Assembly: GCF_000768065.1 (NCBI RefSeq)
Contig: NZ_JRKM01000001.1
Span: forward strand, 2,728,001 to 2,792,000
Source of the DNA: Aquabacterium sp. NJ1
Lineage (GTDB): Bacteria > Pseudomonadota > Gammaproteobacteria > Burkholderiales > Burkholderiaceae_C
Length of the DNA: 64,000 bases
Direction: 5' to 3'
Both the position numbers and the translations under genes were made by a program. A model generated the notes under the pieces. It was given only the letters and a program-made list of their open reading frames with translations, was not told where the DNA came from and searched no databases. Positions 40,575 to 56,838 of the stretch are shown one piece after another (position 1 is the stretch's first letter; every line of letters starts with the position of its first letter).

Positions 40575-43500
40575 TCAGCTCTGGGCTGACTGTTCGCTTG
40601 GCGAGCTATTGACGAGTGCGTTTAAAGCACTCTGGTATTCGGAGCGCGAGGCGCTACTGCTTTGTTTGTCTTCGCCCTTGAAGACGCCCATGGCGGCCAG
40701 GGGCCCTTCCGCAGTATTTCGATATCGTTCAACAACGGGGATGTCGTATGTCATTCCGTTGGCCAAAACGACCTTGTATCGTTCAATGGCGGGAGCGTGC
40801 TTCAGTTCGATAGAGCCTGATGCATCAAGTACGTCTTGCTTGATCATTGCGCCGTTGGCGAACACTTTGTATGGCATGCCTGCCCATCCGGACATCTGAC
40901 CGAAGGGAGCACTGTCAAACGTCAACGTCAAAGGTGTTGTCAACGTACTGGTAGGGAAGCCGGGCATATCCTGATTCAGGATCTGAGGCCCCACCATCGA
41001 CTTCTGCCCTGCCTGCACCGTGATCTTCCCGGGACACTGGGCAGTAAAGCTGCCACCCTCAATCGTGATGCTCGCCCCACCGCTCACAGCCAGCGTCACC
41101 TTCTTGGCCGCCGCGATGTTGACCACCCCACTGGCCGTCTTCAACTGCAGCTCCTGCTTGGCTGCAATCTGCGCCGGGCCCGCCTGAGCCTGCATCTCGA
41201 TCGGCCCTTGCGCCGCGATCATCGTCAGGCCCTTGCCTGCGGCTTCCGCGCCTGGCTGAATCGCTCCTGCCAGCACACCAATAGCCTGCCCCGTGTGCAC
41301 GCGTGCCTGCCCACCCACCGCAAAGTGCGTGTCTTGCCCGCTGGCGATCTGGGTGGTGTCTTGCGCACTCAGGTGCAGGTCTTGGCCCGCAGTCAGGCCA
41401 ATGCCGGCTTTACCGACCAAGGCGATATTGGGATCCGCCATGTGCGGCACCTTGCTCTGGCCGGTGCCGGTGGCTTTGGCTGCCGCGTCTGCCTGGGCGT
41501 TGGGCAGGCTGCTGGTGCTGACCATGCCGCTGAGGCTCTTGGTCAGCGCAGCGGCGGGGGCGGCCCGGTCGTCCAGGTTGCTCTTGTTGCCGCCCACGCT
41601 GCCGGCTGTGGTGGCCAGGCCCACGGTCTGGTGGGTGCTGGCGGCCTGGTGGAAGGTGCTGGCCAGTTGTTGGGCTTGTTTGGCGAGCGCCATGCCGGGG
41701 GCGTTGTCGCCGGCTGGTGTGCCGGTCTGGCCCAAGCCATTGCCCAGGCCGAAGGTGCTGAGCATCACGCCGCGTGCGGCGCGCAGGCCGCCCCAGGCGT
41801 CGGTGCGCAGCTCGAAGCCCAGGCCGCGGAAAGAGCCACGGTGGTTATCGGCCTGGTGCAGCAGGTGGCCCATTTGCAGCCAGGTCTGGCTTTGGGTGCT
41901 GTGCAGCTGGGCGCGCAGCTGGCCGGGGGTGTCGTCGAACACGAGCTGGTTGTAGCCGCTGCCGCCGAATTCCTTGCTCTTGACGCCGCTGAGCGCCGCG
42001 GCGTTGGCCTGGCCTTCTGAGTCTTCGGTGGCGGCCCCCGGTGCGGCGCCGTGCCAGGCGGGGCTGTTGCCGCCGCTGCCTGAGCCCACGAGGTTCATCT
42101 GGCTGCTGGGGCTGTGGTCGGTGGATTCGGCCAGGGCGGCGGTGTCGGCTTCGGCGGGCTGGCCGCCCGGGGTGCGGGGCACGCCCGATTCGCCACGGCC
42201 GTTGTACAGGCTGGCCATGACGAAGGGGCGGTCGATGTCGTTGCCCAGGAAGCCAACCAGCACCTCCTGCCCGATGCGGGGGATGAACTGGTGGCCCATG
42301 CCAGGGCCGGTCAGGCGTTGCATGACGCGCAGCCAGCAGCTGTGGTCGCTGTTGGCGCGCTGAGGGGCGAAGGCGTTGGCCTGCCAGTGGAACTGGACCT
42401 TGATGCGGCCAAGCTGGTCGGTGTAGAGCTCGTCGGCGCCGCTGGCGTTCACGTTGCCATCGGGGCCAACGACGATGGCGGTTTGCGGGCCCAGCGCGGT
42501 GGGGCGCGGGCGGGGGCGCAGGCCGGTGTCGTCCATCAGCACGGCGCGCCAGGGCACGTTGCGGCGCAGGGCCTGGAACTGGCAGGCGTAGCCGGTCTGG
42601 GCGGCGCGCTGGTACAGGGCGGTGCTGTCCACGGCGAAGGTGTCCGGGCCGGTGGCGGCGAGTGCGGGCAGGTCGGCGGCGCCCAGGGTCTTGGCGATCT
42701 TGTCGCTCAGTTCCTTGGGCAGGTTGTTGATGCCGATGACGTCGCAGCCGGTGACGAAGAACTGTTTGTCCTCGTCGGCCAGGCCAAAGGCGGAGAGCGG
42801 GTCCAGCGTGGACTGGGTGACGGCGAACCAGGTGCCGGCGCGCAGGGTGCGCACGGTGCCGCGGCCCAGCCAGGTCTTGTAGCGGGCCTCGTGGGCTTCC
42901 TGCAGGCGGGTGGCGGCGAACTGCGCTTCGGCCTGGTTGCCAAAAACGAAATCACCCGTTGGGTCGTAGCTGGTGAGCCAGCTTTGCAGGCTGGTGGCCT
43001 CGTCGCCACCCCATTCGTGCGCGGTGGGCACCTCGGCGGTGATGGCGGCGTGGGCCTTGTAGTCCCAGCCTTGCAGCACGGTGCCGGTGGGGCCGATCTG
43101 GCGCACGCTGCCCAGGGCCTGGATGCTGTCTTGCACTTCCTGGCTGCTGCTGCCGTGGAAGCGGATGCCGGCGCCCCCCAGGCTGCTGGCGCTGATGGCG
43201 TCTTGCGGTTGCTGCGCGCTGCTGACGAAGAAGACCACGGTGTGGCCGCCCGGGGCGGATTCGTCTTCCTCGACGCGCCAGCAGATGCCTTCTTCGGCCA
43301 GCAGGCGCTGCACGAAGGCCAGGTCGGTTTCGCGGTATTGCACGCAGTAGGCGCGCTGGCCGCCGTTGCGGGCGAACAGGCCTTCGGCCACGTAGGTGGC
43401 GACGTCGTCGTCCCACTTCCAGGCGGCGATGCTGCTGTGGTCGGCGAACACGTCTTCGACGATCTCGATGACCGACTTTTCTTGCCAGACGCGGCTGTTG

Positions 43501-43925
43501 AGCGTGTGGCCCAGCAGCGCCATCCAGGGCTGGATCAGCAGGCCTTTGCGGGCGAAGCCGCCATCGGCTTCCAGGGCGCTGGCTTCCACGACGTAGCCGC
43601 TGCGGCGGGCCTTGCCGCCATCGGCCAGGGTGGTTTCCAGGGTGATGGGGCGGGCGTAGAGCTGCTTGAGCTCGACCTGGGCGTGGAGCACCAGGGCGTT
43701 GACGTACAGCGAAAACGGTTCGGACACGGCCTCGTGCATGACGAAGCTCTCGACCATCAGGTCGGCCGGCAGGCTGCGCTCGCTGCTGGGCGCGCTCAGG
43801 GTGTAGAGGCGGGTGTCGCTGCCCCATTGGGCGAGGAGGCCGCCCAGGGTCGAGTCAACGGCCGACCTGGTGGCCGAAAGGGCGGCATCCAGCCCACCCT
43901 TCAGAAATGAAGAATCCAGCCCCAT
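40575..43925 (-). CDS. vgrG: type VI secretion spike protein VgrG with C-terminal extension
   Basis: 1116 residues from the ATG at 43925 (AGGGA upstream; 51 further in-frame residues look non-coding). Order: gp27-like hub (TRLYTLSAPSSERSLPADLMVESFVMHEAVSEPFSLYVNAL, about residues 35-430), gp5-like OB fold with YTDQLGRIKVQFHW near 500, then the VgrG turn MQRLTGPGMGHQFIPRIGQEVLVGFLGNDIDRPFV. DUF2345 follows at about 820-975 (GKAGIGLTAGQDLHLSAQD...). The last 135 residues (DMPGFPTSTLTTPLTLTFDSAPFGQMSGWAGMPYKVF...) are a separate domain, probably a loading site for the PLD effector next door. No structural T6SS genes are in the window, so this is an orphan vgrG island. Confidence 0.95.
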   Translation of the reverse strand: MGLDSSFLKGGLDAALSATRSAVDSTLGGLLAQWGSDTRLYTLSAPSSERSLPADLMVESFVMHEAVSEPFSLYVNALVLHAQVELKQLYARPITLETTLADGGKARRSGYVVEASALEADGGFARKGLLIQPWMALLGHTLNSRVWQEKSVIEIVEDVFADHSSIAAWKWDDDVATYVAEGLFARNGGQRAYCVQYRETDLAFVQRLLAEEGICWRVEEDESAPGGHTVVFFVSSAQQPQDAISASSLGGAGIRFHGSSSQEVQDSIQALGSVRQIGPTGTVLQGWDYKAHAAITAEVPTAHEWGGDEATSLQSWLTSYDPTGDFVFGNQAEAQFAATRLQEAHEARYKTWLGRGTVRTLRAGTWFAVTQSTLDPLSAFGLADEDKQFFVTGCDVIGINNLPKELSDKIAKTLGAADLPALAATGPDTFAVDSTALYQRAAQTGYACQFQALRRNVPWRAVLMDDTGLRPRPRPTALGPQTAIVVGPDGNVNASGADELYTDQLGRIKVQFHWQANAFAPQRANSDHSCWLRVMQRLTGPGMGHQFIPRIGQEVLVGFLGNDIDRPFVMASLYNGRGESGVPRTPGGQPAEADTAALAESTDHSPSSQMNLVGSGSGGNSPAWHGAAPGAATEDSEGQANAAALSGVKSKEFGGSGYNQLVFDDTPGQLRAQLHSTQSQTWLQMGHLLHQADNHRGSFRGLGFELRTDAWGGLRAARGVMLSTFGLGNGLGQTGTPAGDNAPGMALAKQAQQLASTFHQAASTHQTVGLATTAGSVGGNKSNLDDRAAPAAALTKSLSGMVSTSSLPNAQADAAAKATGTGQSKVPHMADPNIALVGKAGIGLTAGQDLHLSAQDTTQIASGQDTHFAVGGQARVHTGQAIGVLAGAIQPGAEAAGKGLTMIAAQGPIEMQAQAGPAQIAAKQELQLKTASGVVNIAAAKKVTLAVSGGASITIEGGSFTAQCPGKITVQAGQKSMVGPQILNQDMPGFPTSTLTTPLTLTFDSAPFGQMSGWAGMPYKVFANGAMIKQDVLDASGSIELKHAPAIERYKVVLANGMTYDIPVVERYRNTAEGPLAAMGVFKGEDKQSSSASRSEYQSALNALVNSSPSEQSAQS

Positions 43926-44188
43926 TGCGGGTTCCCTGATTTGTGATGTCGTGTTTGATCGGATCGAGGGGGAATTCTCCCGTTGAACCGACGGCGGGCG
44001 GGCCACCCCCTTGGGGTGTATGTGCAACCTGCTGTAACCAATCTGGGGCACGCCGTAACCGTTCGTGAACTGGCGCACGCTCCGCCCTTTGTTTCACCCT
44101 TCAAAGCGCGTCAGGGGGATCAAGCTCTCGACCAGTCGGCCGAAAACGAAAGACGATCTAGCCGCCTCATCCACCGGAGAGTCTGACC

Positions 44189-44595: not shown

Positions 44596-45510
44596 ATGAC
44601 ATTGCCTGAGCAGATCCGCGTGCTGGAGCGCGGCTGGCTATCGTCCAACAACATCGTGTTCCTGGACGACGATGGCGCCACGGTGGTGGACACCGGTTAT
44701 GTCACGCACCTGGATGACACCATCCGCCTGATCGACGAGGCCCGTGAGGGCCGGCCACTGCGCCGCATCGTCAACACCCACATCCATTCCGATCACGCCG
44801 GTGGCAATGCCGGCTTGAAGGCCTTGCATGGCTGCGAGGTGTGGATCCCGCCCGGCGAGGCCGAGTTGGTGGACGTGTGGGACGAAGACCGCCTGAGTTA
44901 CCGCCGCACCAGCCAGTTGTGCCCGCCCTTCCGCTATGACGCCCTGATCCACCCGAACGACACCTTGCGGCTGGGTGGCGAGGATTGGCGTGTGCTGCCT
45001 GCTGCGGGGCACGACCACGCCATGGTGATGTTGTGGTGTGAGCGCCTGGGCATCCTCTTGTCAGCCGATGCCTTGTGGCAAAAGGGCTTTGGCGTGATCT
45101 TCCCGGAGCTGGCCGGCATCCCCGGTTTTGCCGAGCAGAAGGCGACGCTGGATTTGATCGGGCAATTGCAGCCGCGTTGGGTGATCCCCGGGCATGGGGC
45201 GCCTTTCAGTGGTGAGGCGGTGGATGCGGCTTTGATGGCCGCGCATTCACGCATCGATTGGCTGATGGAGGAGCCGCGCCGCAACTCGGACAACGCGCTG
45301 AAGGTGCTGCTGGCCTTCAAGCTGCTGGAGGCCAGGCGCTTGACCTTGCCCGAGCTCGCCGACATGGTGCGCACGAGCGTGCAAGGCAACGTGGCCATGC
45401 AGGCGCATTACCCGCATGAGCCCGAGGTGATGGCGGCATTCATGGCCGAGCAATTGGTCAGGGCCGGTGCGGCCACGCGTGAAGGCGACACCCTGATCGC
45501 CCCACGCTGA
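44596..45510 (+). CDS. metallo-beta-lactamase-fold hydrolase
   Basis: 304-residue MBL-fold enzyme with motif NTHIHSDHAGGNAGLK (HxHxDH), the zinc site. Downstream ligands are in PAAGHDHAMVMLWCERLGILLSADALWQKG and IPGHGAPF. The C-terminal helical DNALKVLLAFKLLEARRLTLPELADMVRTSVQGN resembles the winged helix of the LACTB2-like/glyoxalase-II-like group. The substrate is unknown. ATG preceded by GGGGTGAG. Convergent with the ceramidase operon, 27 bases apart. Confidence 0.88.
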   Translation: MTLPEQIRVLERGWLSSNNIVFLDDDGATVVDTGYVTHLDDTIRLIDEAREGRPLRRIVNTHIHSDHAGGNAGLKALHGCEVWIPPGEAELVDVWDEDRLSYRRTSQLCPPFRYDALIHPNDTLRLGGEDWRVLPAAGHDHAMVMLWCERLGILLSADALWQKGFGVIFPELAGIPGFAEQKATLDLIGQLQPRWVIPGHGAPFSGEAVDAALMAAHSRIDWLMEEPRRNSDNALKVLLAFKLLEARRLTLPELADMVRTSVQGNVAMQAHYPHEPEVMAAFMAEQLVRAGAATREGDTLIAPR

Positions 45511-45537: not shown

Positions 45538-47562
45538 TCAGTTGGCGCGCACCTGGAACACGCTGGAGGTGCCGGTGAACGGCGTGATGGTGCCGATCAG
45601 GTTCTTGGCGTCGCCATAGTGGACGATGCGGTAGCTGCCGGGCGGCGTGCCAGCTGGGATCGTCCAGCTGATGTCGGCGGCGGATTCGGCACCGAAGGTG
45701 CGCACCCAACGGTAGCGTGTCGCCCAGTCGCCATCATCGGCCACCGCTTGCCAGCTGCTGCCCACCAGGCGCTGCACTTCGAGGAAGGTGCCGTTGCGGT
45801 GCAGGTTGTTCTTGGGGTGCCCGGTCTGGAAGCGCACGCTCACCGTGTCGCCCGGCGCGTAGCTGCTGGCCACGTCCGTCAGCACCTGGCCGAAGCGTTT
45901 GCCCAAGGCGGGCAGGTCCATCACCACGCCGGTCTGGAAGTTGAGCTGGCTGTTGCTCAGGTCGCGCGGTTGCAGGGTGTTGATGGTCGGCTGGTTGTTG
46001 GCCATGTCGTACGCCAGCTTGTTGAGCTCCTGCTGGTAGGCCGGCTGCGTGTAGGGCCCAAACAGGGTGCTGCCACCTTCGTAGTCCTGGATGCTGTATT
46101 CCTCGGGCGTGGTGATGTACTCGGTGTAGGCATTGGTGTAGCCCACCACCAGCACCTGCCTGATGTCGACGCCCAGCGTGCGGGCCAGTTGCCGGCGGAT
46201 GCGGTAGCCCGACATGATGGTGGGCTCGCCCGGCAGCGTGGCCAGGTAGAGCGAACCCAGGCGGACCAGTTGCAGCGGCAGCACTTCGGGCGCCCAGGGG
46301 TAGGGCTTCATGTCACCCACGGGGATCACGACTTCCTTGACACCCTGACATTGCTTGAGCGTTTCGGAGGGCCAGAACACCAGGCCGCCAATCGCCGCGA
46401 GGAAGGGGTTGGACTGACCCTCCTTGGCGATGCCCGGGCCGGGGCCGTCTTCTTCACTGCCGGCGGCGAAGCTGGTGCCCAGGGCCGCCGGGCAGGTGCT
46501 GTGCGGCTGGCCATCGGGTGTGTACGCGCCGGAGACGGCCACCTGGCTCATGTTCACGTAGCGCATGCGGTAGTCCACCGCGCCTTGCAAGGTGGTGCTC
46601 GATTGCGCTGACAGCTGCAAGGCCTTGTCGGCCTGACGCTGGCCGATGATGCGGGTGTTCTCGAACTCGTCGTCGGTGGGGCCGCTGCCAGGCTTAAGGT
46701 TCAGGTTGGGCGACATGTCGCCGGGGTTGGTCTGCCCGAATGCGGCCACGAAGGGCGCCTTGTCGCTGCGGTAGCGCACGCCGGCCTGGTCATGCTCCCA
46801 GTGGTAGGCGGCGTAGCCCTTGTTGTCCCCGCTGATCAGCGTGTTGCTGTTGGTCATGCTCGTGCCATGGGTGGGGAACAGGCTGAGCGCGCCCACCGGC
46901 CTGCCGCTTTGGCGGAAGGTCAGCACGCTCATGAGCGGGTCGATCTCCAGCGGGAAGGCGGCGCGGTCGCTGGCGGGGTTGAGGCGGAAGGCTGGTGCCG
47001 AGCGGTTGCGGCTGGCGTTGGTGAGCTCGCCCTGGTTGAGCAGGATGTCGCCCGGGGCCTTGCTCAGGTGGGCTTTGTCGATGGCCTCGACGATGCCGTC
47101 CACGATGGCGTTGAAGGTCTTTTGCTGGAAGCCCAGGATGGTGATGTTGTAGAGCGCGTAGTGCGAGTAACCACCGGGCCCGGCGTGCGTGTGCGTGGCG
47201 CTGATGAGCACGTTCTGCTCGTTGTACAGCGCGCCGTACTTGGCGGCCAGGCGCTTGAGCACGGCCTGGTGGATGGCTTGGGTGACCAGGCCCGTGTCGG
47301 CGATGACGATGACAGCGGATTTTTGGGTGGCGGCATCCTGCACGATGAAGGCGCGTGCGCGCAATCGCTGGTGGATGCCCGATGTTTTCTGCGTGAGCTC
47401 GGCGTAGCCCATCATGCCGACCTCGGCGGCCTCGCCGGTGATGTCGCTCATGCCGACGCCCACTTGGTAAGGCGGCGTGGCGGCCCGCGCCGTGCCGGCA
47501 TGAGCGAGGGCGCCCATGGCCAGGGCCAGAGCGAGCTTGGAGAGGCGATGCAGCGGGCGCAT
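45538..47562 (-). CDS. neutral ceramidase
   Basis: 674-residue exported neutral/alkaline ceramidase that splits ceramide into sphingosine and fatty acid. Signal peptide MRPLHRLSKLALALAMGALAHAGTARA. The catalytic domain begins YQVGVGMSDITGEAAEVGMMGYAELTQKTSGIHQRLRARAFIV. Zinc site SATHTHAGPGGYSHY and nucleophile NPGDMSPNLN (Ser in the G-D-x-S-P loop) are intact, and a C-terminal Ig-like domain carries SVRFQTGHPKNNLHRNGTFLEVQ. It is the last gene of a six-gene operon whose products could handle the released sphingosine. 41 bases after the TorF-like gene. Confidence 0.95.
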   Translation of the reverse strand: MRPLHRLSKLALALAMGALAHAGTARAATPPYQVGVGMSDITGEAAEVGMMGYAELTQKTSGIHQRLRARAFIVQDAATQKSAVIVIADTGLVTQAIHQAVLKRLAAKYGALYNEQNVLISATHTHAGPGGYSHYALYNITILGFQQKTFNAIVDGIVEAIDKAHLSKAPGDILLNQGELTNASRNRSAPAFRLNPASDRAAFPLEIDPLMSVLTFRQSGRPVGALSLFPTHGTSMTNSNTLISGDNKGYAAYHWEHDQAGVRYRSDKAPFVAAFGQTNPGDMSPNLNLKPGSGPTDDEFENTRIIGQRQADKALQLSAQSSTTLQGAVDYRMRYVNMSQVAVSGAYTPDGQPHSTCPAALGTSFAAGSEEDGPGPGIAKEGQSNPFLAAIGGLVFWPSETLKQCQGVKEVVIPVGDMKPYPWAPEVLPLQLVRLGSLYLATLPGEPTIMSGYRIRRQLARTLGVDIRQVLVVGYTNAYTEYITTPEEYSIQDYEGGSTLFGPYTQPAYQQELNKLAYDMANNQPTINTLQPRDLSNSQLNFQTGVVMDLPALGKRFGQVLTDVASSYAPGDTVSVRFQTGHPKNNLHRNGTFLEVQRLVGSSWQAVADDGDWATRYRWVRTFGAESAADISWTIPAGTPPGSYRIVHYGDAKNLIGTITPFTGTSSVFQVRAN

Positions 47563-47603
47563 GGGGGCTCCTTTCTGGTGACGACGTGGGCGTGGTAGCG
47601 CGG

Positions 47604-48536
47604 TCAGAAGCGCTTGGCGATGCTGGCCATCAGCGCGGGCTTGTCGATGCGCTTGACCGACGTGCCATCGGTGGTTGCCGTGTTGCCGTAATAGCTGTTG
47701 CGCATGCTGCCACCAACGATGTCGGCTTCAAAGTCAAAACCCCAGCGCGTGTGGCTGACGCCCAGCTTGTAGTCCAGCGTGTTGAGGAAGGAGAAGTTGT
47801 GCACGGCGGTGTAGCCCAGGTGCGTGACCAGTTTGGTGCTGCCATTGAGCGGGATCCTGGCTTCAACCTGCAGCAGCTGCGAGCCACGGCTGTTGTGGTA
47901 GCCGCGGTCATAGCAGCTCATGGCCTCGGACAGGTCGGCCCCGCCGTTCTGGATCATGCCGATCTGGGCGGCGCTGCCACACACCACCGAGGTGTTGTTG
48001 CCACGGAAGTCCTTGCTCAGCACCAGCATGTAGCGGGCTTCGATGATGCCGTAGCCGAACTCGAACAGGCCGAAGCTGGTGTCGAAGTTGGTCTTGATCA
48101 GCTCGGCGGGTGCGCCCATGGCGTAGGCGATTTCGTTGTCATGCACCTCCACCGACGAGCCGGGGAACATCTCATGCGCCGCGCCCACGCCGAAGTGCCA
48201 GGCTTCCGGTTTGCCCCAGCGGTAACCGAGCGCGGCCACGGCGGTGGTCTTGTTGCCATCGGGGAAGCTCTCCTTGGCCACCGTGCCCAGTTGCAGGTAG
48301 CCCAGGAAGCCGGACTCGTGCGCGGCCGTGACGGTGAACTCGGCGCCGGGGCGGCGGTAGGTGTCCGACAGGCCGTTGGTGCGGCGATCGGTCAGCACCT
48401 TGGCTTCCATGTCGAGCGAGTAGGTCTGGATCTCGGGCTCACCCGGGGCGGCGGCTTGGGCCGATGCGGCGGCGGCCAGCATGAGGGCGGTCAGTGCGGC
48501 GGACGTGATGGCAGAGAGGGACAGGGTGGACTTCAT
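47604..48536 (-). CDS. TorF-like putative outer-membrane protein
   Basis: 310 residues from the ATG at 48536 (MKSTLSLSAITSAALTALMLAAAASAQAA is a good signal peptide; 148 upstream in-frame residues are read through another gene). Alternating hydrophobic beta strands run to the end (NFSFLNTLDYKLGVSHTRWGFDFEADIVGG) and the chain closes with ALMASIAKRF, a terminal Phe typical of outer-membrane barrels. It resembles the TorF/Gcw_chp barrels. A role in uptake or sensing of the lipid substrate is inferred from the operon. Two cysteines (VVCGSAAQ, AMSCYDRG) may form a disulfide. Confidence 0.78.
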   Translation of the reverse strand: MKSTLSLSAITSAALTALMLAAAASAQAAAPGEPEIQTYSLDMEAKVLTDRRTNGLSDTYRRPGAEFTVTAAHESGFLGYLQLGTVAKESFPDGNKTTAVAALGYRWGKPEAWHFGVGAAHEMFPGSSVEVHDNEIAYAMGAPAELIKTNFDTSFGLFEFGYGIIEARYMLVLSKDFRGNNTSVVCGSAAQIGMIQNGGADLSEAMSCYDRGYHNSRGSQLLQVEARIPLNGSTKLVTHLGYTAVHNFSFLNTLDYKLGVSHTRWGFDFEADIVGGSMRNSYYGNTATTDGTSVKRIDKPALMASIAKRF

Positions 48537-48604
48537 GGCTTGTCTCCGGAAAGGGGCCGCTCGTGTCGGCTTGGGTTTGAATCGATTGCGGACGATGGGT
48601 CGGG

Positions 48605-49048
48605 CTAATGCGCCTTGCAGCCTGCGGGCAGCGTGGCCACGCGGCTCATCTCTTCGGTCTCGCCGAGGATCTCGGCCCCGATGTAGGCGCGCAGGGACAA
48701 GGTGTCCTTGTTGACGCGCACGGTGGCCTTGTAGTTCTTCTTGGTGCGCGGGTCGTGAACCCAACCGTCGCGCCAGGCCTCGTCGTCGTACTTCTTGAGC
48801 TTGGCGATCATCAGGCCGCAGGTGTCCAGCGGGGTGCCGGCGTCCTTGTCCCACACGATGGTGGCGCACAGGGCGCCGGCCGGGTCGGTGCAGTCCTTGA
48901 ACTCGATCACCGCGCCTTTGTCGGCGCTGAGCCAGAGGCCTTTGGCGTCGTTGGGGCCGGGGGGCGTCTGGGCGGCGCAAGCGGCCGAGCCGGTGAGCAG
49001 GGCAGTGACGGCCGTGACAAGGCCGACGATGGGCAAACGCTTCATCAT
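48605..49048 (-). CDS. DUF2147 exported protein
   Basis: 147 residues from the second of three consecutive ATGs (49051, 49048, 49045), with GGAG six bases before it. Signal peptide to AACAAQ. The mature protein follows DUF2147: GLWLSADKGAVIEFKDCTDPAGALCATIVWDKD, LIAK-like LMIAKLKKYDDEAWRDGWVHDPRTKKNYKATVRV and LSLRAYIGAEILGETEEMSRV. DUF2147 proteins are small periplasmic beta-barrels of unknown function. Between the PLP-enzyme gene and the outer-membrane gene in the operon. Confidence 0.87.
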   Translation of the reverse strand: MMKRLPIVGLVTAVTALLTGSAACAAQTPPGPNDAKGLWLSADKGAVIEFKDCTDPAGALCATIVWDKDAGTPLDTCGLMIAKLKKYDDEAWRDGWVHDPRTKKNYKATVRVNKDTLSLRAYIGAEILGETEEMSRVATLPAGCKAH

Positions 49049-49124
49049 CATCTTCTCCAATACGACAGAGACGGTGCCCTCAACCGCGCCTTCACGGGCG
49101 CAGGCCAAGCGCAATCAACAACAA

Positions 49125-50405
49125 TCAGGCCTGGGCCGGGAACACGGGCCACATCTCGGTGATGCGGCCGTTCTCGTACACGGCGATGTCACCGAACTGC
49201 TGCAACACGGCCTCGCTTTGCGTGGGCCTCAGGAACACGAAGTCATCGGGGTGCAGGGCCTGCTTGCCCGAGCCCAGCAGGATCTGCTGGTTGGACGAGG
49301 GGCCGATCAGCCCGCTGGGGCTCAGGCCCGCAGGCGCCACCGGGTTGGCCAGCCAGTGGCCGCCATAGATGAACAGGGACGCGCGCTGGTTGGGGTCCCA
49401 CCAGCCAGCAGCGGTGCTGAGCGGCTCCACGCCATCGGGGGCGACGAAGCGCCCCGTCTTGAGCACGGGGGTGGCGATGAAGGCGGCGGGCTGCATGTCC
49501 GTCAGCAAGGGCGTGTCGAAGTCGGAGGGCTTGACCATGGCCGAGCCCACCGACACCTCGTTGGCCGCGCCGCTGCCGTCGTGCAGCTTGAAGCTGGGCG
49601 AGCCGGCGGTGTTGAGCGTGAGCTGGTCGCGTGCGGCCTTCAGCGGGCTGGCCTGCACGAAGTCCAGCATGCGCTGATAGGCCTGCTTGGAATGCGCGCG
49701 CGACTGCTCGCGCAGGCCACCGATCTCGGGGATCTTTTCGGTGTGGGCTTCGTAACCCATCAGGCCGGCCCAATGCAGCAAGGGCTCTTCGGCGATGAGC
49801 TGCACCATGGTCTTCATCATGTCCAGATCGGGCACGCCGCCACGGTGCAGGCCCACGTCGATCTCGATGTTGACCCGCATGGATTGCTTTTGCGCGCGGG
49901 CCAGATCGCGGTATTGCCGCAGGCGCTCGGGCGTGTCGACCAACCATTGCAGCTGGCGGCTGGCGTCGAAGCCGGATGCGGGGGGCTGCGCGTAGAAGCG
50001 CGCCGCGGCGACCACCGGCAGGGGTTTGCCCATCAGCACATCACTTTGCGGGCGTTGCTGCGTGAGCAGTTGCAGGTAGGGCAGGTTGAACACCATCTGC
50101 CGCTGTGTGCCGGTGAGCTTGCTCAGTTCGTCCAGCAAGGGCATGCAGGCCAGGGACTTGTTGACCAGGCGCAGGTGCAGCCTGTTTTGCACATGGGCCT
50201 GCACGTGTTCGGCATTGGCATGCAGGCGCGCACGGTCGATCACCAGGGTGGGCGTGCCGATGCCCGCGGCCTTCAAGGCCTGGTTGAGCGAAGCAAAGTA
50301 GGGCTCGTACGGTGCGCCTTGGTCAGTGGGGCGCAGGGCCACCACACCAGCGGCTGCGGCCACCGTGGCGGTGCCGATGAACTGGCGTCGGGTCAGGAGT
50401 GGCAT
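49125..50405 (-). CDS. Tat-exported DSD1-type PLP enzyme (D-threonine-aldolase fold)
   Basis: 426 residues with a twin-arginine signal (LTRRQFIGTATVAAAAGVVAL). The mature part has the alanine-racemase-type N-terminal barrel of D-threonine aldolases and D-serine dehydratases: TPTLVIDRARLHANAEHVQA, the PLP lysine region LRLVNKSLAC, VNIEIDVGLHRGGVPDL, LMGYEAHTEKIPEI and the C-terminal beta domain. PLP enzymes are normally cytosolic, so Tat export of a pre-folded cofactor enzyme is notable. In this operon it could act on an oxidised sphingoid base. The order cytochrome c, FAD oxidase, PLP enzyme resembles, from memory, P. aeruginosa sphBCD. Confidence 0.85.
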   Translation of the reverse strand: MPLLTRRQFIGTATVAAAAGVVALRPTDQGAPYEPYFASLNQALKAAGIGTPTLVIDRARLHANAEHVQAHVQNRLHLRLVNKSLACMPLLDELSKLTGTQRQMVFNLPYLQLLTQQRPQSDVLMGKPLPVVAAARFYAQPPASGFDASRQLQWLVDTPERLRQYRDLARAQKQSMRVNIEIDVGLHRGGVPDLDMMKTMVQLIAEEPLLHWAGLMGYEAHTEKIPEIGGLREQSRAHSKQAYQRMLDFVQASPLKAARDQLTLNTAGSPSFKLHDGSGAANEVSVGSAMVKPSDFDTPLLTDMQPAAFIATPVLKTGRFVAPDGVEPLSTAAGWWDPNQRASLFIYGGHWLANPVAPAGLSPSGLIGPSSNQQILLGSGKQALHPDDFVFLRPTQSEAVLQQFGDIAVYENGRITEMWPVFPAQA

Positions 50406-50420
50406 GGTGTCTTTCTTCCC

Positions 50421-51839
50421 TTATGCCTGGACAAACAGCTTGCGCAGGTGTGCATTGAGCATGTGGCCCTGCGGGTCGAACTGTTTGCGCATGGTCTGGA
50501 AGTCCGCCCAGCGTGGGTACATGGCCGACAGCTCCTTGAAGCCCATCTCGTGCAGCTTGCCCCAGTGAGGGCGGCCACTGTGGGCGCGGTAGATGGGGGC
50601 ACAGTCCTTCACTAGGTAGTCCCAGGGCTCGTCGGCGGCGGCGTGCACGGCGATCGAGCAGCTGTCGCGGCCGTGGAAGGGGCTGAGCCAGGCGTAGTCG
50701 CTTTTGATGAAACGGAACTCGATGGGGAAGAAGGCCTCGTTGTGCTTCTCGATGGCGGCGATGATCTGGCGCAGGCAGGCGATGCCTTGCTCGCGCGGCA
50801 CATGCCACTCGGATTCGTTGAACTTGATGGGCCGCACGGACGACAGCAGGCGGTAGGCGCGGTGCCGTGCCTCGTCGGTCATATTGGGGTCGATGAACTT
50901 CTGCGCGGCCCACTGGCGCAGTTGCGGGAAGCGACCCAGCCAGTCGCGCAGCTTGCGCAGGTCGTCCATGACGGCGTCGTCACTGGGCTTGGGCAGCATC
51001 AGGTCTGTGCCGGTGTAGAGGTCGTGCGAGATGGCCGCGCCATAGCCTGTGAAGGGCAGGTAGTACATCTCGAAGTTGCGATGCTGCTGGGCCAGTTGGG
51101 GCGCTTGTTGCAGCAGTTGCTCGATGGGGCGCAGCCAGACCTTGCGGTGCAGGTTGTAGGCGGGCAGCACACGCATGGTCACCTGCGAGATCACGCCAAA
51201 GCTGCCCAGCGACACACGCGCTGCGGCGAGCATGGCGCGGTTCTGGTCCTCGTGCAGCTCGATCACCTTGCCGCCGGGCGTGACGATGCGCATGCCCACG
51301 ATGTCGGCGTGCAGCGCGGGCAGGTCGATGCCGGTGCCGTGCGTGCCGGTGGAGATGGCGCCTGCGATGGTCTGCACGTCCACATCGGGCAGGTTGCGCA
51401 GGGCCAGGCCCTGGGCGTCCAGTGCGCGCGACAGCACGCCCAGACGGGTGCCGCCGTGGATGGTGGCGGTCATCGCCTGTTTGTCGACCGAGATCAGGCC
51501 CGAGAGCTTGTCCAGCGAGACGATGGTGCCCGAGGTGGGCACCAGTGCGGTGAAGGAGTGGCCCGAGCCGAAGGCCCGGACTTCACCCTGCGCCGATGCC
51601 ATCAGGGCCTGCAGTTCAGCCTCGTTGGCAGGGGTGGGCAAGGCCGCCGGCGTGGCGCGTTGCACGCCCGACCAGTTGTGCCATTGCAGGCTGCCTGCGG
51701 CGGGTGCGGTGGCCGGCGTGGCGGCTTGTGCCTCGTCCAGCAGGCCGTGGCTCAGTAAGAGCCCGCCCAGCGTGGCGGCTGCACCTTGCGCGATGAACTG
51801 GCGGCGGGGCACCAGGGTCTGGAAGTCGGGTTGGGTCAT
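50421..51839 (-). CDS. FAD-linked aldonolactone-oxidase-like enzyme, Tat-exported
   Basis: 472 residues from the ATG at 51839, inside an ATGA overlap with the cytochrome gene. Twin-arginine signal VPRRQFIAQGAAATLGG to AQA. FAD-binding PCMH-type domain: VRAFGSGHSFTALVPTSGTIVSLDKL, TIHGGTRLGVLSRALDAQGLALRNLPDVDVQTIAGAISTGTHGTG and LGSFGVISQVTMRV. The C-terminal domain is D-arabinono-1,4-lactone oxidase-like with RPHWGKLHEMGF. Related enzymes oxidise an alcohol and give electrons to O2 or cytochrome c. With the cytochrome gene coupled upstream, a dehydrogenase passing electrons to it is likely; substrate inferred as sphingosine. Confidence 0.9.
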   Translation of the reverse strand: MTQPDFQTLVPRRQFIAQGAAATLGGLLLSHGLLDEAQAATPATAPAAGSLQWHNWSGVQRATPAALPTPANEAELQALMASAQGEVRAFGSGHSFTALVPTSGTIVSLDKLSGLISVDKQAMTATIHGGTRLGVLSRALDAQGLALRNLPDVDVQTIAGAISTGTHGTGIDLPALHADIVGMRIVTPGGKVIELHEDQNRAMLAAARVSLGSFGVISQVTMRVLPAYNLHRKVWLRPIEQLLQQAPQLAQQHRNFEMYYLPFTGYGAAISHDLYTGTDLMLPKPSDDAVMDDLRKLRDWLGRFPQLRQWAAQKFIDPNMTDEARHRAYRLLSSVRPIKFNESEWHVPREQGIACLRQIIAAIEKHNEAFFPIEFRFIKSDYAWLSPFHGRDSCSIAVHAAADEPWDYLVKDCAPIYRAHSGRPHWGKLHEMGFKELSAMYPRWADFQTMRKQFDPQGHMLNAHLRKLFVQA

Positions 51840-52207
51840 GGGGTGGGGCCACTCATGAAAGCGATCAGGCCGCGCAGGTCGTCGTCCGTGCAGTCGCTGC
51901 ACAGGCCTTTGGCGGGCATGCCGTTGAAGCCTTCGCGGGCATGCGTCAGCAGCACCTCGGCACCTTGAGCCAGGCGCGGCTTCCAGGCCGGGGCGAAGCC
52001 GGTCAAGGGGGCGGCGCTGCGCACGCCGTGGCAGCTCAGGCAGGCGCGTTCGTACTTGGCCGCGAGCTGGGCATCGGCCGGACGCAGGGTTTCAGCGCGG
52101 GCAACGTCCAGGTCACCGGGAGGGGGCGGCGGCGCATCGTGGCAGGCGGCCAGCAGGAGCATGGGCAGCCAGCTCAGCGAGAGCAGCGCGTGTTTGATCG
52201 GGGTCAT
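51836..52207 (-). CDS. monoheme cytochrome c lipoprotein
   Basis: 123 residues from the ATG at 52207 (19 further in-frame residues look unlikely). Lipobox LAAC with C22 and a five-Pro linker anchor it to a membrane. Heme site CLSCH at 56-60, and a likely axial Met in GFNGMPAKG. A second Cys pair (CSDC) lies near the C-terminus. First gene of the operon; its TGA overlaps the next ATG. Likely electron acceptor of the FAD enzyme, feeding the respiratory chain. Confidence 0.88.
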   Translation of the reverse strand: MTPIKHALLSLSWLPMLLLAACHDAPPPPPGDLDVARAETLRPADAQLAAKYERACLSCHGVRSAAPLTGFAPAWKPRLAQGAEVLLTHAREGFNGMPAKGLCSDCTDDDLRGLIAFMSGPTP

Positions 52208-52353
52208 GAAAAAAGAAACGGCGCGAGAAAAAAATACAGTGTTATCAGAATATGCTGTGTCCAATCAGACAGTTATCCAGACAAACCCTGTCCACTTCCT
52301 GCCGTAAAACGCGAGGTAATAGGGCCGTGAGATCACCCGAGGAGCGCCGCTTC
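52208..52353. promoter_or_regulatory. divergent control region of TetR gene and sphingolipid operon
   Basis: An A/T-rich stretch with two short palindromes, TGTC-N6-GACA (52258-52271) and GACA-N5-TGTC (52280-52292). They share the same half-site and could be binding sites for the divergent TetR protein, controlling both directions. Confidence 0.4.
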
Positions 52354-53043
52354 GTGGCCACCACTTCTGCCAAAGAGTCCACCAAAGATTCAGCCAAAGA
52401 TGCCGCCAAGGAAACGCGCAAGCTGCGCGAGGCCGAGCAGCGCCGCAAGGCCATCATCAAGATCGTGCGCAAGCTGATCAAGAAGGGGGGCCTGGCCGAT
52501 GTCTCGCTGCGCAAGGTGGCCGAGCTGGCGGGCTACTCCACCACGGTGGTGTACTCGCTGTTCGAGGACAAGGCCATGCTGATCACGCAGGCCATGGACG
52601 AAGACCTGCTCGAGCTCACCCGCGTGATGTCGGCCGCGGCCAACGCACACAAGACCCCGGCTGACCGCATCCGTGGCATGGCGCGGGCTTACATCGCGTT
52701 CGGCATCGCGCACCCGGCCGAGTACGCCTTCGTGTTCATGCAGCAGCGCCCGCATGCGCCCAACGAGTCGGCGCGTGTGCAGCATGGTGATCCGTCTGAA
52801 GACCCGTATGCCTTTGGCCGCAGCCTGTGGGCCGATCTCGCGCAAACGGGGGCGGTCAGCAACAAGGATGTCGACATCGACCTGATGACCCAGATCTTCT
52901 GGGAGGGCATCCACGGCCTGACGGCGCGCCACCTGGTGATGGGCCCCGATGACGTCTGGTTCCCCGAGGTGCCCAGTGAGCGCCACATCGAGCTGATGAT
53001 CGAGGTGCTGCTGGGCGGCATCGTGCAGCAGTTCAAGTCTTGA
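52354..53043 (+). CDS. TetR-family regulator of the sphingolipid operon
   Basis: 229 residues from the GTG at 52354 (AGGAG upstream; a GTG at 52327 is also possible). A Lys/Ala/Glu tail (MATTSAKESTKDSAKDAAKETRK) precedes the HTH: RKAIIKIVRKLIKKGGLADVSLRKVAELAGYSTTVVYSLFEDKAMLITQAM. The C-terminal ligand domain (WEGIHGLTARHLVMGPDDVWFP) is of the common TetR_C type. Divergent from the cytochrome gene, so it should sense a lipid product of the pathway; that is inference. Confidence 0.9.
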   Translation: MATTSAKESTKDSAKDAAKETRKLREAEQRRKAIIKIVRKLIKKGGLADVSLRKVAELAGYSTTVVYSLFEDKAMLITQAMDEDLLELTRVMSAAANAHKTPADRIRGMARAYIAFGIAHPAEYAFVFMQQRPHAPNESARVQHGDPSEDPYAFGRSLWADLAQTGAVSNKDVDIDLMTQIFWEGIHGLTARHLVMGPDDVWFPEVPSERHIELMIEVLLGGIVQQFKS

Positions 53044-53129
53044 CCGGGGCCTGAACAAGCCCTGAAGCTCCCTACAATGCCACTGCGCCATCCGGTGCGG
53101 TGGCGGTTTGTCTTGGATGGAGTGGGCTC

Positions 53130-53693
53130 ATGGGCAAGGTCGGGGAAGTCACGCAGCTGCTGGCTGCAGCGCAGCAAGGGCAGTCTGAGGCGCTCAACCG
53201 CCTGTTCGACCTGCTCTACCCGCAGCTGCGCCAGATCGCCTCGGCGCGCATGCGCAAGACCGACGAGCGCGTGATGCTCGACACCACCTCGCTGGTGCAC
53301 GAGTGCTACCTGCGCCTGCTCAAGCTCGAAGAGCTTTCGCTCAATGACCGCGGCCACTTCCTGGCCTACGCCGCCAAGGTGATGCGCTCGGTGGTGGTGG
53401 ACATCGCCCGCGAGCAACAGGCCCAGCGCCGTGGTGGCGACATGGCCTTTGTCACGCTGGACACTGCCGTGGCCAGCGGCCTGCCCAGCGGCGAAGACGA
53501 GGTGCTGCACATCCACGAAGCGCTCGAAGCGCTGGGCGCCATCGACCCGCGCCTGGTCAAGGTGGTGGAGATGCGCTACTTCATCGGCCTGGATAACAGC
53601 GAAATCGCCGAAGTGCTGGACGTGAGCACTCGCACGGTCGAACGTGACTGGGAGCGCGCCCGCAGCTTCCTGTTTGCGGCCCTCAAGGCCTGA
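53130..53693 (+). CDS. ECF sigma factor of the kinase-linked group
   Basis: 187 residues from the ATG at 53130 (GGAG upstream). Sigma region 2 is TSLVHECYLRLLKLEELSLNDRGHFLAYAAKVMRSVVVDIAREQQAQRRGGD and region 4 is PRLVKVVEMRYFIGLDNSEIAEVLDVSTRTVERDWERARSFL. This matches the ECF group encoded next to Ser/Thr kinases (TIGR02999 type), where phosphorylation by the kinase replaces an anti-sigma factor. In Xanthomonas and Vibrio such pairs control type VI secretion or antibiotic resistance. The kinase gene starts 34 bases downstream. Confidence 0.92.
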   Translation: MGKVGEVTQLLAAAQQGQSEALNRLFDLLYPQLRQIASARMRKTDERVMLDTTSLVHECYLRLLKLEELSLNDRGHFLAYAAKVMRSVVVDIAREQQAQRRGGDMAFVTLDTAVASGLPSGEDEVLHIHEALEALGAIDPRLVKVVEMRYFIGLDNSEIAEVLDVSTRTVERDWERARSFLFAALKA

Positions 53694-53727
53694 GCGGCTG
53701 TGCGCCTGTGCGTATGAGGCCCCAGCC

Positions 53728-56700
53728 ATGAAGATCCCCATGGCCTTGTGGCCCCGCCTCATGCCCTTGCTGGACGAGGCCCTGGCGCAGCCCCGTGAGC
53801 AGCGCGAGGCCTGGCTGCGCGACTTGACGCTGGACGATGAAACGCGTGCCGCGCTCAAGCAACTGCTGGCCGACCGCGAAGAACTGGATGGCGGTGCCTT
53901 CATGGCCGAGCTGCCCAAGCTGGCGCCGCTGGCATCAGCGCCCTCGCCCTCGCCCTTCCCTTCGCCAGATGGCCCCCACGAACCCGATGAAGCCGACGCC
54001 CGCTCGAACCGCGTCAGCCAGTCCGGCCTGTTCGCTGGTGACATGCTGGGCCCCTACCGCCTGATCAAGCCTTTGGGCCAGGGCGGCATGAGCGTGGTCT
54101 GGCTGGCCGAGCGCGATGACGGCCAGATCCGTCGCCAGGTAGCCCTGAAGATGCCGCATGCCGGCCCCGGCCAGGCCCTGCTGGCCGAACGCCTGCGCCG
54201 TGAACGCGACATCCTCGCCAGCCTGGAACACCGCCACATCGCCCGCCTGTACGACGTGGGCACCGCGCCCACCGGCCTGCCCTTCATGGTGCTGGAGTAC
54301 ATCGAAGGCCTGCCCTTGCCGGCCTATTGCGATGAACACCGTCTCAACCTGTACGAGCGCCTCAAGCTCTTCCTGCAGGTGCTCAGCGCCGTGCAGTACG
54401 CGCACACCAAGCTCGTGCTGCACCGCGACCTCAAGCCCAGCAACATCCTGGTCAACCGCGAAGGCGAGGTCAAGCTGCTGGACTTCGGCATCGCCAAGCT
54501 CATCCGCGACAGCGAGACCGGGCTGGTGGCGCCCTCCACCGAACTGACCCAGCACAACGGCCATGTCCTCACGCCGGACTACGCCGCGCCCGAGCAGATC
54601 GCCGGTCAACCCTTGACCACTGCCAGCGACGTGTACGCACTCGGCGTGATCCTGTTCGAGCTGCTGACCGGCCAGCGTCCTTACCGCCTGCCCAGAGGCA
54701 CACGCGGTGCGCTCGAAGAGGCCATCCTGGTCGCCGATGCGCGCCGGCCCAGCCAGGTCTGGCTCGATGCCGATGTGCAGACCCACCACCCCACCGCGGT
54801 CACGGTCAGCGATCTGGCCGAACACTTCAGGGCCAGCCCCCGCCGCCTGAGCCAGTTGCTGCGTGGCGACCTCGACGTGATCGTGGCCACCGCCCTGCAA
54901 AAGCAGGCCACGCGCCGCTACCCCACCGCCGAAGCCTTTGCGCAGGACATCCAGCACCACCTGGCCAAGGAGCCTATAGCGGCCCAGCCGGACAGCCGCT
55001 GGTACCGCACACGCAAGTACATCCAGCGCCATGCCTGGGCCCTGAGCGCTGTGGGGGCCGTCGTCGCCGCCTTGAGCGTGGGCCTGGGCCTGGCCCTGTG
55101 GCAAGCCAAGGAGGCCCGGCAGGAAGCGGCCAAGGCCAACGCCATCAAGGACTTCCTGGTCGGCCTGTTCGAGAACGGCGACGTGGAACAACCCGATGCC
55201 CTGCGCAAGCGCCAGCAGACGGTTGAGCAGTTGCTCATCAACAGCGCCAATGCACTGGGCACCCAGCTCAAGGACCAGCCCGAAGTGCGCGTGGAGCTGC
55301 AAGGCGTGGTGGGCGGCTTGCTGCACAGCCTCGCGATCACCGACGAGGCCATCAAGCTGCGCAAGCAGCGGTTGGCGCAGCTTGAAGCCATGAGGGCGTC
55401 AGTGGCAGAGCGCGCGCAGGCCTTGAGGGAGTTGGCGGATAGTCAGGATGCGAGGGGGGATACGCAAGGCGCAAGGGCAACCTTGGACAGGGGCTTGGCT
55501 TTATGCAGGGCCGCGCAGATGCAGCCTGCGACAGTTTGTTATGGTTTGCAGGTTGCCCGAGGGCAGATGGAAGCGCTCGCACGCAACATTGAGGTCGCTG
55601 AACGCGAGATCGCACCAGCGTTGAAGGTACTGGAGCGTCAACGCATGCCCAGCACGCAATACGCCGAGGCGCTAGTGGGGATGGGCGACATACTGAGTCT
55701 GAAGGGGCAGGCCGATACTTCTTACGCGCTGTACAAGGAGGCCATGCGGGTCCGCACCATGTTATGGGGTGCAAACTCAATACGGCTGGCAAAGGAGCGA
55801 TTTCAGTTGGCCATGAGCCTAGGCATGGTGCGCAGACTTAGTCAGGCAGATGAGGAGCTGCATGCAGCCTTGACGGTGATGACCAACGCGCTCGGCCGAG
55901 AGCACTTGAGCACGGCTACGGTGGAGTTGCAATTGGGCCGGCTTCATGCGCTTTTGGGGACTGAACAGGACGCTCACGCCTTGATAGAGCATGCTGGTTC
56001 GGTGATTTTGAAGCACCGGGGCGAGGCAGATGCCAGAACGGTTGTTGACGCGCTGTGGGCGCAAGGAGAAAGCGCGCTGTTCGAGGGGCGCATGTCTGAC
56101 GCAAGCGCCAGCCTGAATGCTGCAATGACCTTGCATCGCTCAGCGGACAGAGGCATACCTCGAGACGGCTTATTAGAAATAACGATGGCTTGGTATCTGA
56201 TCGATATGGGGCAATACCAAGCCGCGCGGCAACTGTTGTTGCATACGCGTGACGCCCTGTTTGGCGCGACGCGGGATGCCTCCTCCATGGTCCATGCTGT
56301 AGAAGAAGCGATTGCGTCTAGCTATCTTGCTGAGCAACGCTTTGATGACGCCAAGCTTTGGTTGATGCGGGCATCAAGGCTGGATACGTCAGTTTCGAAC
56401 CCATCGCCACTGCCACAGGTCGACTACAAGGCCAGTTGGGCTGCGCTGTATCTGGAGCAAGGCAAGTTGAGCGATGCTGAGCCGTTTGTGCGTGCCTACA
56501 TGGACGCGATCACCGGGCAAGCACGCGGTGACACTTTTGTGCTGGACATCTATGCGTCCAATGACCTAGCTGCTCGCATGGCCCTGGCTCAGGGGCATCC
56601 GCGTGACGCGAAGAAGTATTTCGAGCGAGCTATCGAAGCATTGGCTAAGTTGGGTCCTGGAAATCCCTATCTGGCGGTAACACGTAGTCGATACGCAGAA

Positions 56701-56838
56701 GTCCTGCATCTGCTGGGCGACCAGTCGGCATCCCTGCATCAATTGAGTTTGGCCCAAATCGCGTTGAAGCGTTGCGGCACAACCGCAGCTCATTTTTGGC
56801 GTGTATATCAGCGTGTCGAGAAACGTGTTGCAAGTTGA
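53728..56838 (+). CDS. transmembrane Ser/Thr kinase with large periplasmic TPR-like sensor
   Basis: 1036 residues from the ATG at 53728 (28 earlier in-frame residues overlap the sigma gene). Kinase domain about 108-400: LGQGGMSVVWLAERD, VALKM, HRDLKPSNIL (D234) and DFGIAKL with DYAAPEQ. One transmembrane helix near 437-457 (WALSAVGAVVAALSVGLGLALW). The remaining 580 residues are helical TPR-like repeats (LEAMRASVAERAQALRELADSQD... LYKEAMRVRTMLWGANSIRLAKE). The 3' part, from about 55390, uses noticeably more A/T codons than the kinase part. Probably activates the ECF sigma factor when the sensor binds a signal. Confidence 0.92.
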   Translation: MKIPMALWPRLMPLLDEALAQPREQREAWLRDLTLDDETRAALKQLLADREELDGGAFMAELPKLAPLASAPSPSPFPSPDGPHEPDEADARSNRVSQSGLFAGDMLGPYRLIKPLGQGGMSVVWLAERDDGQIRRQVALKMPHAGPGQALLAERLRRERDILASLEHRHIARLYDVGTAPTGLPFMVLEYIEGLPLPAYCDEHRLNLYERLKLFLQVLSAVQYAHTKLVLHRDLKPSNILVNREGEVKLLDFGIAKLIRDSETGLVAPSTELTQHNGHVLTPDYAAPEQIAGQPLTTASDVYALGVILFELLTGQRPYRLPRGTRGALEEAILVADARRPSQVWLDADVQTHHPTAVTVSDLAEHFRASPRRLSQLLRGDLDVIVATALQKQATRRYPTAEAFAQDIQHHLAKEPIAAQPDSRWYRTRKYIQRHAWALSAVGAVVAALSVGLGLALWQAKEARQEAAKANAIKDFLVGLFENGDVEQPDALRKRQQTVEQLLINSANALGTQLKDQPEVRVELQGVVGGLLHSLAITDEAIKLRKQRLAQLEAMRASVAERAQALRELADSQDARGDTQGARATLDRGLALCRAAQMQPATVCYGLQVARGQMEALARNIEVAEREIAPALKVLERQRMPSTQYAEALVGMGDILSLKGQADTSYALYKEAMRVRTMLWGANSIRLAKERFQLAMSLGMVRRLSQADEELHAALTVMTNALGREHLSTATVELQLGRLHALLGTEQDAHALIEHAGSVILKHRGEADARTVVDALWAQGESALFEGRMSDASASLNAAMTLHRSADRGIPRDGLLEITMAWYLIDMGQYQAARQLLLHTRDALFGATRDASSMVHAVEEAIASSYLAEQRFDDAKLWLMRASRLDTSVSNPSPLPQVDYKASWAALYLEQGKLSDAEPFVRAYMDAITGQARGDTFVLDIYASNDLAARMALAQGHPRDAKKYFERAIEALAKLGPGNPYLAVTRSRYAEVLHLLGDQSASLHQLSLAQIALKRCGTTAAHFWRVYQRVEKRVAS

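Follow-up and report, generated by a model that had tools for sequence, protein, structure and literature searches.

A ceramidase-containing variant of the sphBCD system with a predicted TetR operator in Aquabacterium sp. NJ1

A 64,000-nucleotide window of the genome of Aquabacterium sp. NJ1 (assembly GCF_000768065.1, contig NZ_JRKM01000001.1, positions 2,728,001 to 2,792,000) contains a six-gene minus-strand operon at 45538-52207, divergent from a TetR-family gene at 52354-53043, in which a neutral ceramidase is combined with relatives of the Pseudomonas aeruginosa genes sphB, sphC and sphD. The locus is a genuine and conserved version of the sphBCD system that includes the ceramidase and has a different regulator. 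Judged by homology, it quite probably encodes an extracytoplasmic pathway, repressed by the TetR, that acts on ceramide and sphingoid bases. This reading is based on the ceramidase active site, the presence of a ceramidase in 15 of 15 SphD-containing Aquabacterium genomes, the conserved residues of SphC, the D-hydroxy amino acids on which solved relatives of SphD act, the lipocalin model of DUF2147, the operator counts, and gene clusters that join cerN to an oxidase; gene content, homology, conserved residues, linkage and operator pattern are all taken directly from sequence. The source genome comprises 5.0 Mb in 17 contigs and comes from a freshwater-type bacterium.

Organization of the locus

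Every one of the seven genes described in a first-pass annotation of this DNA was present at the position given there, and the features of the locus are as follows (aa, amino acids; FAD, flavin adenine dinucleotide; PLP, pyridoxal phosphate; Tat, twin-arginine translocation).

45538-47562, minus strand: neutral ceramidase, CerN-like, 674 aa, with signal peptide (PF04734, E 2e-182; PF17048, E 1e-54)
47604-48536, minus strand: outer-membrane beta-barrel, putative porin or channel, 310 aa (sub-threshold Gcw_chp/TorF-porin match)
48605-49051, minus strand: exported DUF2147 protein with predicted lipocalin fold, 148 aa (PF09917)
49125-50405, minus strand: SphD-like exported fold-III PLP enzyme, 426 aa (PF01168; Tat signal TIGR01409)
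50421-51839, minus strand: SphC-like exported FAD oxidase, alditol-oxidase type, 472 aa (PF01565 and PF04030; TIGR01679)
51836-52207, minus strand: SphB-like cytochrome c lipoprotein, 123 aa (PF13442; haem motif CLSCH; lipobox LLAAC)
52229-52245, minus strand: predicted TetR operator ATAACACTGTATTTTTT upstream of sphB (conserved block; palindrome WAACRNTGTTW)
52354-53043, plus strand: TetR-family repressor, 229 aa from a probable GTG start (PF00440 and PF13305)

The order of transcription on the minus strand is cytochrome c lipoprotein, Tat FAD oxidase, Tat PLP enzyme, DUF2147 protein, barrel and neutral ceramidase. The sphB and sphC genes overlap by 4 nt and the later intergenic gaps are 15, 73, 68 and 41 nt, while a terminator scan found no strong terminator in the interior, terminator-like sites occurring there at the rate of shuffled sequence. 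This tight spacing, with no clear internal terminators, fits a single operon. A scan for sigma-70 promoters returned zero matches. The grouping of these genes is not due to chance, since it recurs across Aquabacterium and Massilia.

Relationship to the P. aeruginosa sphingosine genes

The sequences of P. aeruginosa sphB, sphC, sphD, sphA and sphR were taken from the annotated record. The similarity to sphBCD that had been proposed in the first-pass annotation held up, with the cytochrome c, FAD and PLP genes in the same order and with identities of 46% (over 100 aa), 38% and 47% to SphB, SphC and SphD, respectively, and the proposed export of these enzymes was borne out by Tat and lipobox motifs, the N-terminus of the FAD oxidase carrying the sequence PRRQFIAQG. 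In P. aeruginosa, SphR together with sphingosine switches on sphA, sphBCD and cerN (LaBauve and Wargo, PMC3900636), and sphBC is required for sphingosine metabolism (DiGianivittorio et al., PMC11893366). Both systems (PA5328-PA5324 and PA0845 in P. aeruginosa) bring a ceramidase and an outer-membrane channel under common control with the three enzymes, and from this homology and the SphR regulon it follows that the Aquabacterium operon would gather in one transcript what Pseudomonas runs as a scattered regulon. The differences are that the P. aeruginosa ceramidase gene lies outside sphBCD, whereas in Aquabacterium one operon holds it, that the AraC-type SphR is replaced by a TetR, that the DUF2147 gene is an addition, and that the barrel is not SphA, a relationship that was rejected at a BLASTP E value of 0.14. 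Control by SphR was also rejected, as the 33 AraC-type matches in the genome (E <= 0.001) include none linked to the locus and reach at best 28% identity, compared with 65-69% for SphR of other Pseudomonas.

The ceramidase has both expected domains, is 52.6% identical to CerN and matches the solved P. aeruginosa ceramidase 2zws over its full length (E 3e-208). It keeps H124, H232, E446, Y482 and S284 where the P. aeruginosa enzyme has its metal site and nucleophile, all of which upholds its original assignment. On a Kitasatospora linear plasmid (L191, 5902-9298), a neutral ceramidase gene adjoins a sphingomyelinase gene.

The FAD oxidase scores 474.9 bits against TIGR01679 (cut-off 292), and its nearest solved relatives are alditol oxidase and a related FAD protein. 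SphC shares with Streptomyces coelicolor AldO (2vfr) the covalent-FAD histidine and four catalytic residues (Glu, Arg, His, Lys), with H46, E320, R322, H343 and K375 (AldO numbering, in agreement with the alignment) kept in 88-89 of 89 SphC relatives. SphC differs from AldO in being exported and cytochrome-paired and in having an invariant Asp (D152) at the position of AldO Ser106, a residue that lies near the substrate in the AldO structure. This Asp could hold the ammonium group of sphingosine, and an acid so placed supports oxidation by SphC at C1. Oxidation of sphingosine at C1 was already proposed in PMC3900636. Because it is paired with a cytochrome, SphC probably acts as a dehydrogenase, and an electron route from the FAD enzyme to the cytochrome was predicted in PMC11893366.

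For the DUF2147 protein, a sequence search of the PDB gave no match. Its AlphaFold model (predicted local distance difference test, pLDDT, 85) has as its best structural match the Helicobacter pylori lipocalin HP1028 (4inn_A; Z 12.1, root-mean-square deviation 2.9, 113 aligned residues; next match Z 9.1), although the two share only 16-17% identity. The model predicts a lipocalin/calycin fold, an eight-strand up-down barrel, which suggests a lipid carrier, the shared fold alone being no proof of that role. The outer-membrane protein was modelled as a transmembrane barrel resembling the small porins OmpG, NanC and KdgM (Z about 12), and the COG4313 structure 4rl8 was among the matches at Z 10.7, not above OmpG and NanC; the porin matches are too close in score to name one family.

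A palindrome upstream of sphB tracks the TetR gene

Orthologues of the TetR were found in 18 of 42 Aquabacterium genomes and near sphBCD in Massilia, Duganella, Undibacterium, Rhodoferax, Castellaniella, Simplicispira and Acidovorax. Among 11 Aquabacterium loci, the TetR-sphB spacer drifts save for a block around ATAACACTGT, and with one mismatch allowed no second copy of the window operator occurs in the 5.0-Mb genome. The motif AACRYTGTT was derived from the Aquabacterium, Massilia and Castellaniella sites. A count upstream of sphB then placed it at 19 of 23 loci with a TetR of this family and at 2 of 48 without, against a background of 0.010 per 300 bp. All four TetR loci without a match are closely related to the window and carry a one-base variant, and at one of the two TetR-less exceptions the upstream contig ends short. 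Among loci that had not been used in building the motif (Duganella, two Undibacterium, two Rhodoferax, Simplicispira and Acidovorax) the count was 7/7 versus 2/48 (p = 1.8e-7), the related pairs reducing these seven to about four lineages. Since the palindrome tracks the presence of TetR and is almost never found otherwise, the TetR very likely binds WAACRNTGTTW upstream of sphB, a pattern that supports the earlier suggestion of TetR control over the operon.

The same predicted operator precedes an exported amine oxidase

A genome-wide scan gave three strict operator matches. One lies about 40 bp before a gene for an exported flavin amine oxidase resembling monoamine oxidase (MAO), which is followed by a flavin monooxygenase gene, and the other two operator-like sites, at G000:C1:1043186 and 2607636, have no convincing target.

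G000:C1:1425705-1427231, outside the window (L194, L196): Tat-exported MAO-like flavin amine oxidase and flavin monooxygenase, with the same operator upstream

With up to one mismatch to WAACRNTGTTW allowed, the site was found before the amine oxidase in 9 of 9 oxidase-containing genomes with TetR and in none of 5 without, and 2.5% of random 150-mers pass this test. The 9/9 is somewhat generous, as the motif was widened after some of the amine-oxidase sites had been seen; the strict motif gives 6/9. In two Aquabacterium genomes, G181 (L082) and G178 (L081), cerN, the oxidase and the monooxygenase form one cluster without sphBCD, with ceramidase-oxidase spacings of 75 and 59 bp, and the region tested in these was that upstream of cerN (G181 is among the nine and G178 among the five).

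Because the operator is common to sphB and the amine-oxidase pair, a second route of oxidation appears to be part of the regulon, and on the simplest reading the exported amine oxidase would also act on the sphingoid base, at the amine. We offer, with somewhat less than even confidence, the broader proposal that this TetR is a new Burkholderiales sensor of sphingoid bases that unites a C1-alcohol route (SphC and SphB) with a C2-amine route (exported monoamine oxidase and flavin monooxygenase), of which species keep one or both and either of which can be attached to the ceramidase gene. The TetR resembles the BetI, KstR and FasR models weakly, which does not fix its ligand, and several TetR regulators answer acyl-CoAs. 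The repressor might thus control the operon while sensing a downstream product, such as a fatty acid, long-chain aldehyde or acyl-CoA, and not the sphingoid base itself; we regard this as possible but short of likely, as a site shared by sphB and an amine oxidase would point to an amine or sphingoid signal.

Distribution of the operon and its variants

Among the 42 Aquabacterium genomes, 15 contain both ceramidase and SphD, 3 ceramidase alone and none SphD alone (Fisher p = 8e-9, with kinship ignored). In a family sample of 151 genomes, all four with a ceramidase also had SphD, and about 17 overall had a true SphD relative. Simplicispira, Acidovorax and Castellaniella have the unit of sphBCD, DUF2147 and barrel but no ceramidase in it, and Massilia has the unit together with a ceramidase, which indicates that the core is widespread and that the ceramidase joined it in some lineages. 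Two genomes of the genus Aquabacterium (L079, L080) have a more distant ceramidase ahead of sphBCD, with TetR and operator missing. The Aquabacterium-genus locus L089 is likewise arranged, with neither TetR nor operator, and the ceramidase before sphBCD is divergent (42%) in all three.

Three Massilia loci (L097, L099, L112) have TetR, sphBCD, DUF2147, barrel and ceramidase in the same order as the window, except that SphB was not detected in L099 and L112, and an operator-like palindrome lies upstream in L097 and L099; the TetR gene is co-directional in Massilia and divergent in Aquabacterium. The first-pass annotation had called the linkage of ceramidase to the operon under TetR a distinct arrangement, and this is right in that the ceramidase does lie in the operon under TetR, but the arrangement is not unique, given the seven genes in Massilia and a cytochrome c-FAD-PLP series following a TetR in Ruegeria. 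On a Ruegeria pomeroyi megaplasmid (L034, 4539-9322), a different TetR, a cytochrome c, SphC, SphD and a DUF819 membrane protein stand in a row; this TetR showed no similarity to that of Aquabacterium at E 1e-4. A DUF819 gene is also found near the Yoonia locus L035. A literature search, with most subscription journals outside its scope, found no paper on a TetR-run ceramidase-sphBCD operon and none linking DUF2147 to sphingolipid breakdown.

Proposed pathway and the chemistry of SphD

In the pathway as we infer it, with regard to substrates, inducer, direction of electron flow, SphD chemistry and the carrier and channel roles, secreted CerN would cut ceramide to fatty acid and sphingosine, the barrel would probably admit the amphipathic sphingoid base, and the lipocalin-like DUF2147 protein may carry it in the periplasm. 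FAD-bound SphC would then oxidise the C1 alcohol of sphingosine and pass electrons to SphB, the cytochrome lipoprotein. Should oxidation go as far as the acid, the product would be a D-configured beta-hydroxy amino acid suited to the D-specific fold of SphD, which may cleave it into glycine plus a C16 aldehyde or process it otherwise. The TetR would sit on the palindrome upstream of sphB until released by the sphingoid base or its product.

The configuration of the product is our own derivation: in (2S,3R) sphingosine the priorities change places once C1 has become a carboxylate, and the resulting beta-hydroxy amino acid is (2R,3R), of D configuration. The best solved matches of SphD are D-3-hydroxyaspartate and D-threonine aldolases (4v15, 6qkb), which share with it the fold-III PLP family and the PLP-binding lysine (Lys83, present in 97/97 SphD relatives) and differ from it in that SphD is Tat-exported and lacks their metal motif. 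Since solved fold-III relatives act on D-hydroxy amino acids, the fold of SphD fits the expected product, and this argument would explain the place of a D-amino-acid-type PLP enzyme in the pathway.

Several observations weigh against the ceramide and sphingoid-base pathway or parts of it. The C-terminal metal motif of D-threonine aldolase (H-x-C/D) is absent from SphD, where PGHCDP aligns with PTQSEA, and sphD is dispensable in P. aeruginosa (PMC11893366), for which the same work leaves direct action of SphC on sphingosine open. The ceramidase falls below the NCBIfam NF041649 equivalog cut-off (679 versus 1200 bits for the full model), and the model of the barrel is only moderate (pLDDT 71). 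Among 349 Burkholderiales genomes, ceramidase (9 genomes) and SphD (6) coincide only in this one, which indicates that the link between the two is lineage-specific.

The earlier statement that the product is cleaved by the PLP enzyme is in keeping with its fold family, but cleavage is made uncertain by the substitution of the aldolase His-Cys-Asp by Gln-Ser-Glu, which is conserved in 94-97 of 97 relatives. This replacement and the dispensability of sphD would both agree with SphD acting on the oxidised base not as an aldolase but by racemisation, dehydration or deamination. We hold that alternative to be credible, if on balance doubtful, as aldolases are its best solved matches and metal binding by Glu398 is still conceivable.

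The purpose of the pathway might also be detoxification and not nutrition, the enzymes destroying membrane-damaging sphingosine from neighbours or hosts and CerN serving only to convert ceramide to the inducer or to attack sphingolipid-bearing competitors such as sphingomonads. This would be consistent with P. aeruginosa, in which sphBC gives protection from sphingosine and behaves as a public good (PMC11893366), and co-regulation of the amine oxidase would provide two ways to destroy a sphingoid base; a ceramidase in the operon, however, makes more sphingosine, which suits feeding, and we consider detoxification rather less probable than not. A further possibility, in which the ceramidase is a chance neighbour and the substrates of the FAD and PLP enzymes are sugar alcohols or lactones and free D-amino acids, would accord with the family names of SphC (sugar lactone and alditol oxidases) and with the activity of the SphD family on D-amino acids. 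This appears very improbable, since the closest characterised relatives are the sphingosine-controlled sphBCD, all 15 SphD genomes of Aquabacterium have a ceramidase, the AldO Ser106 position is an invariant Asp, and the same palindrome stands before the gene of an exported oxidase, which other species have linked to cerN.

Neighbouring genes

The operon has a convergent neighbour on its ceramidase side.

44596-45510, plus strand: metallo-beta-lactamase (MBL)-fold hydrolase (PF00753)

This hydrolase is close to the ceramidase in most Aquabacterium sph loci, and an apparent relative stands beside the TetR in two genomes without sphBCD (L219, 583-1491; L220, 2183-3091); it may belong to the pathway. 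Adjoining the TetR at 53100-56838 (plus strand) are an extracytoplasmic function (ECF) sigma factor (Sigma70_ECF) and then an apparent serine/threonine kinase with repeats, and a large VgrG-like protein (type VI secretion tip) is encoded at 40575-44078 (minus strand).

Implications

New here are the predicted operator, the second unit with its exported oxidase, the Asp of SphC, the missing metal motif of SphD and the lipocalin model of DUF2147. A Cupriavidus strain answers sphingosine without a close sphR (PMC13293705), which calls for another sphingosine sensor in Burkholderiales, and the present analysis assigns a precise predicted operator to a new repressor linked to sphingolipids and leads to the prediction of an amine-oxidase route as the second one. 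Two extra candidate parts, the DUF2147 lipocalin and the barrel, are also named. A compact operon in an environmental bacterium here unites the ceramidase with the oxidase.

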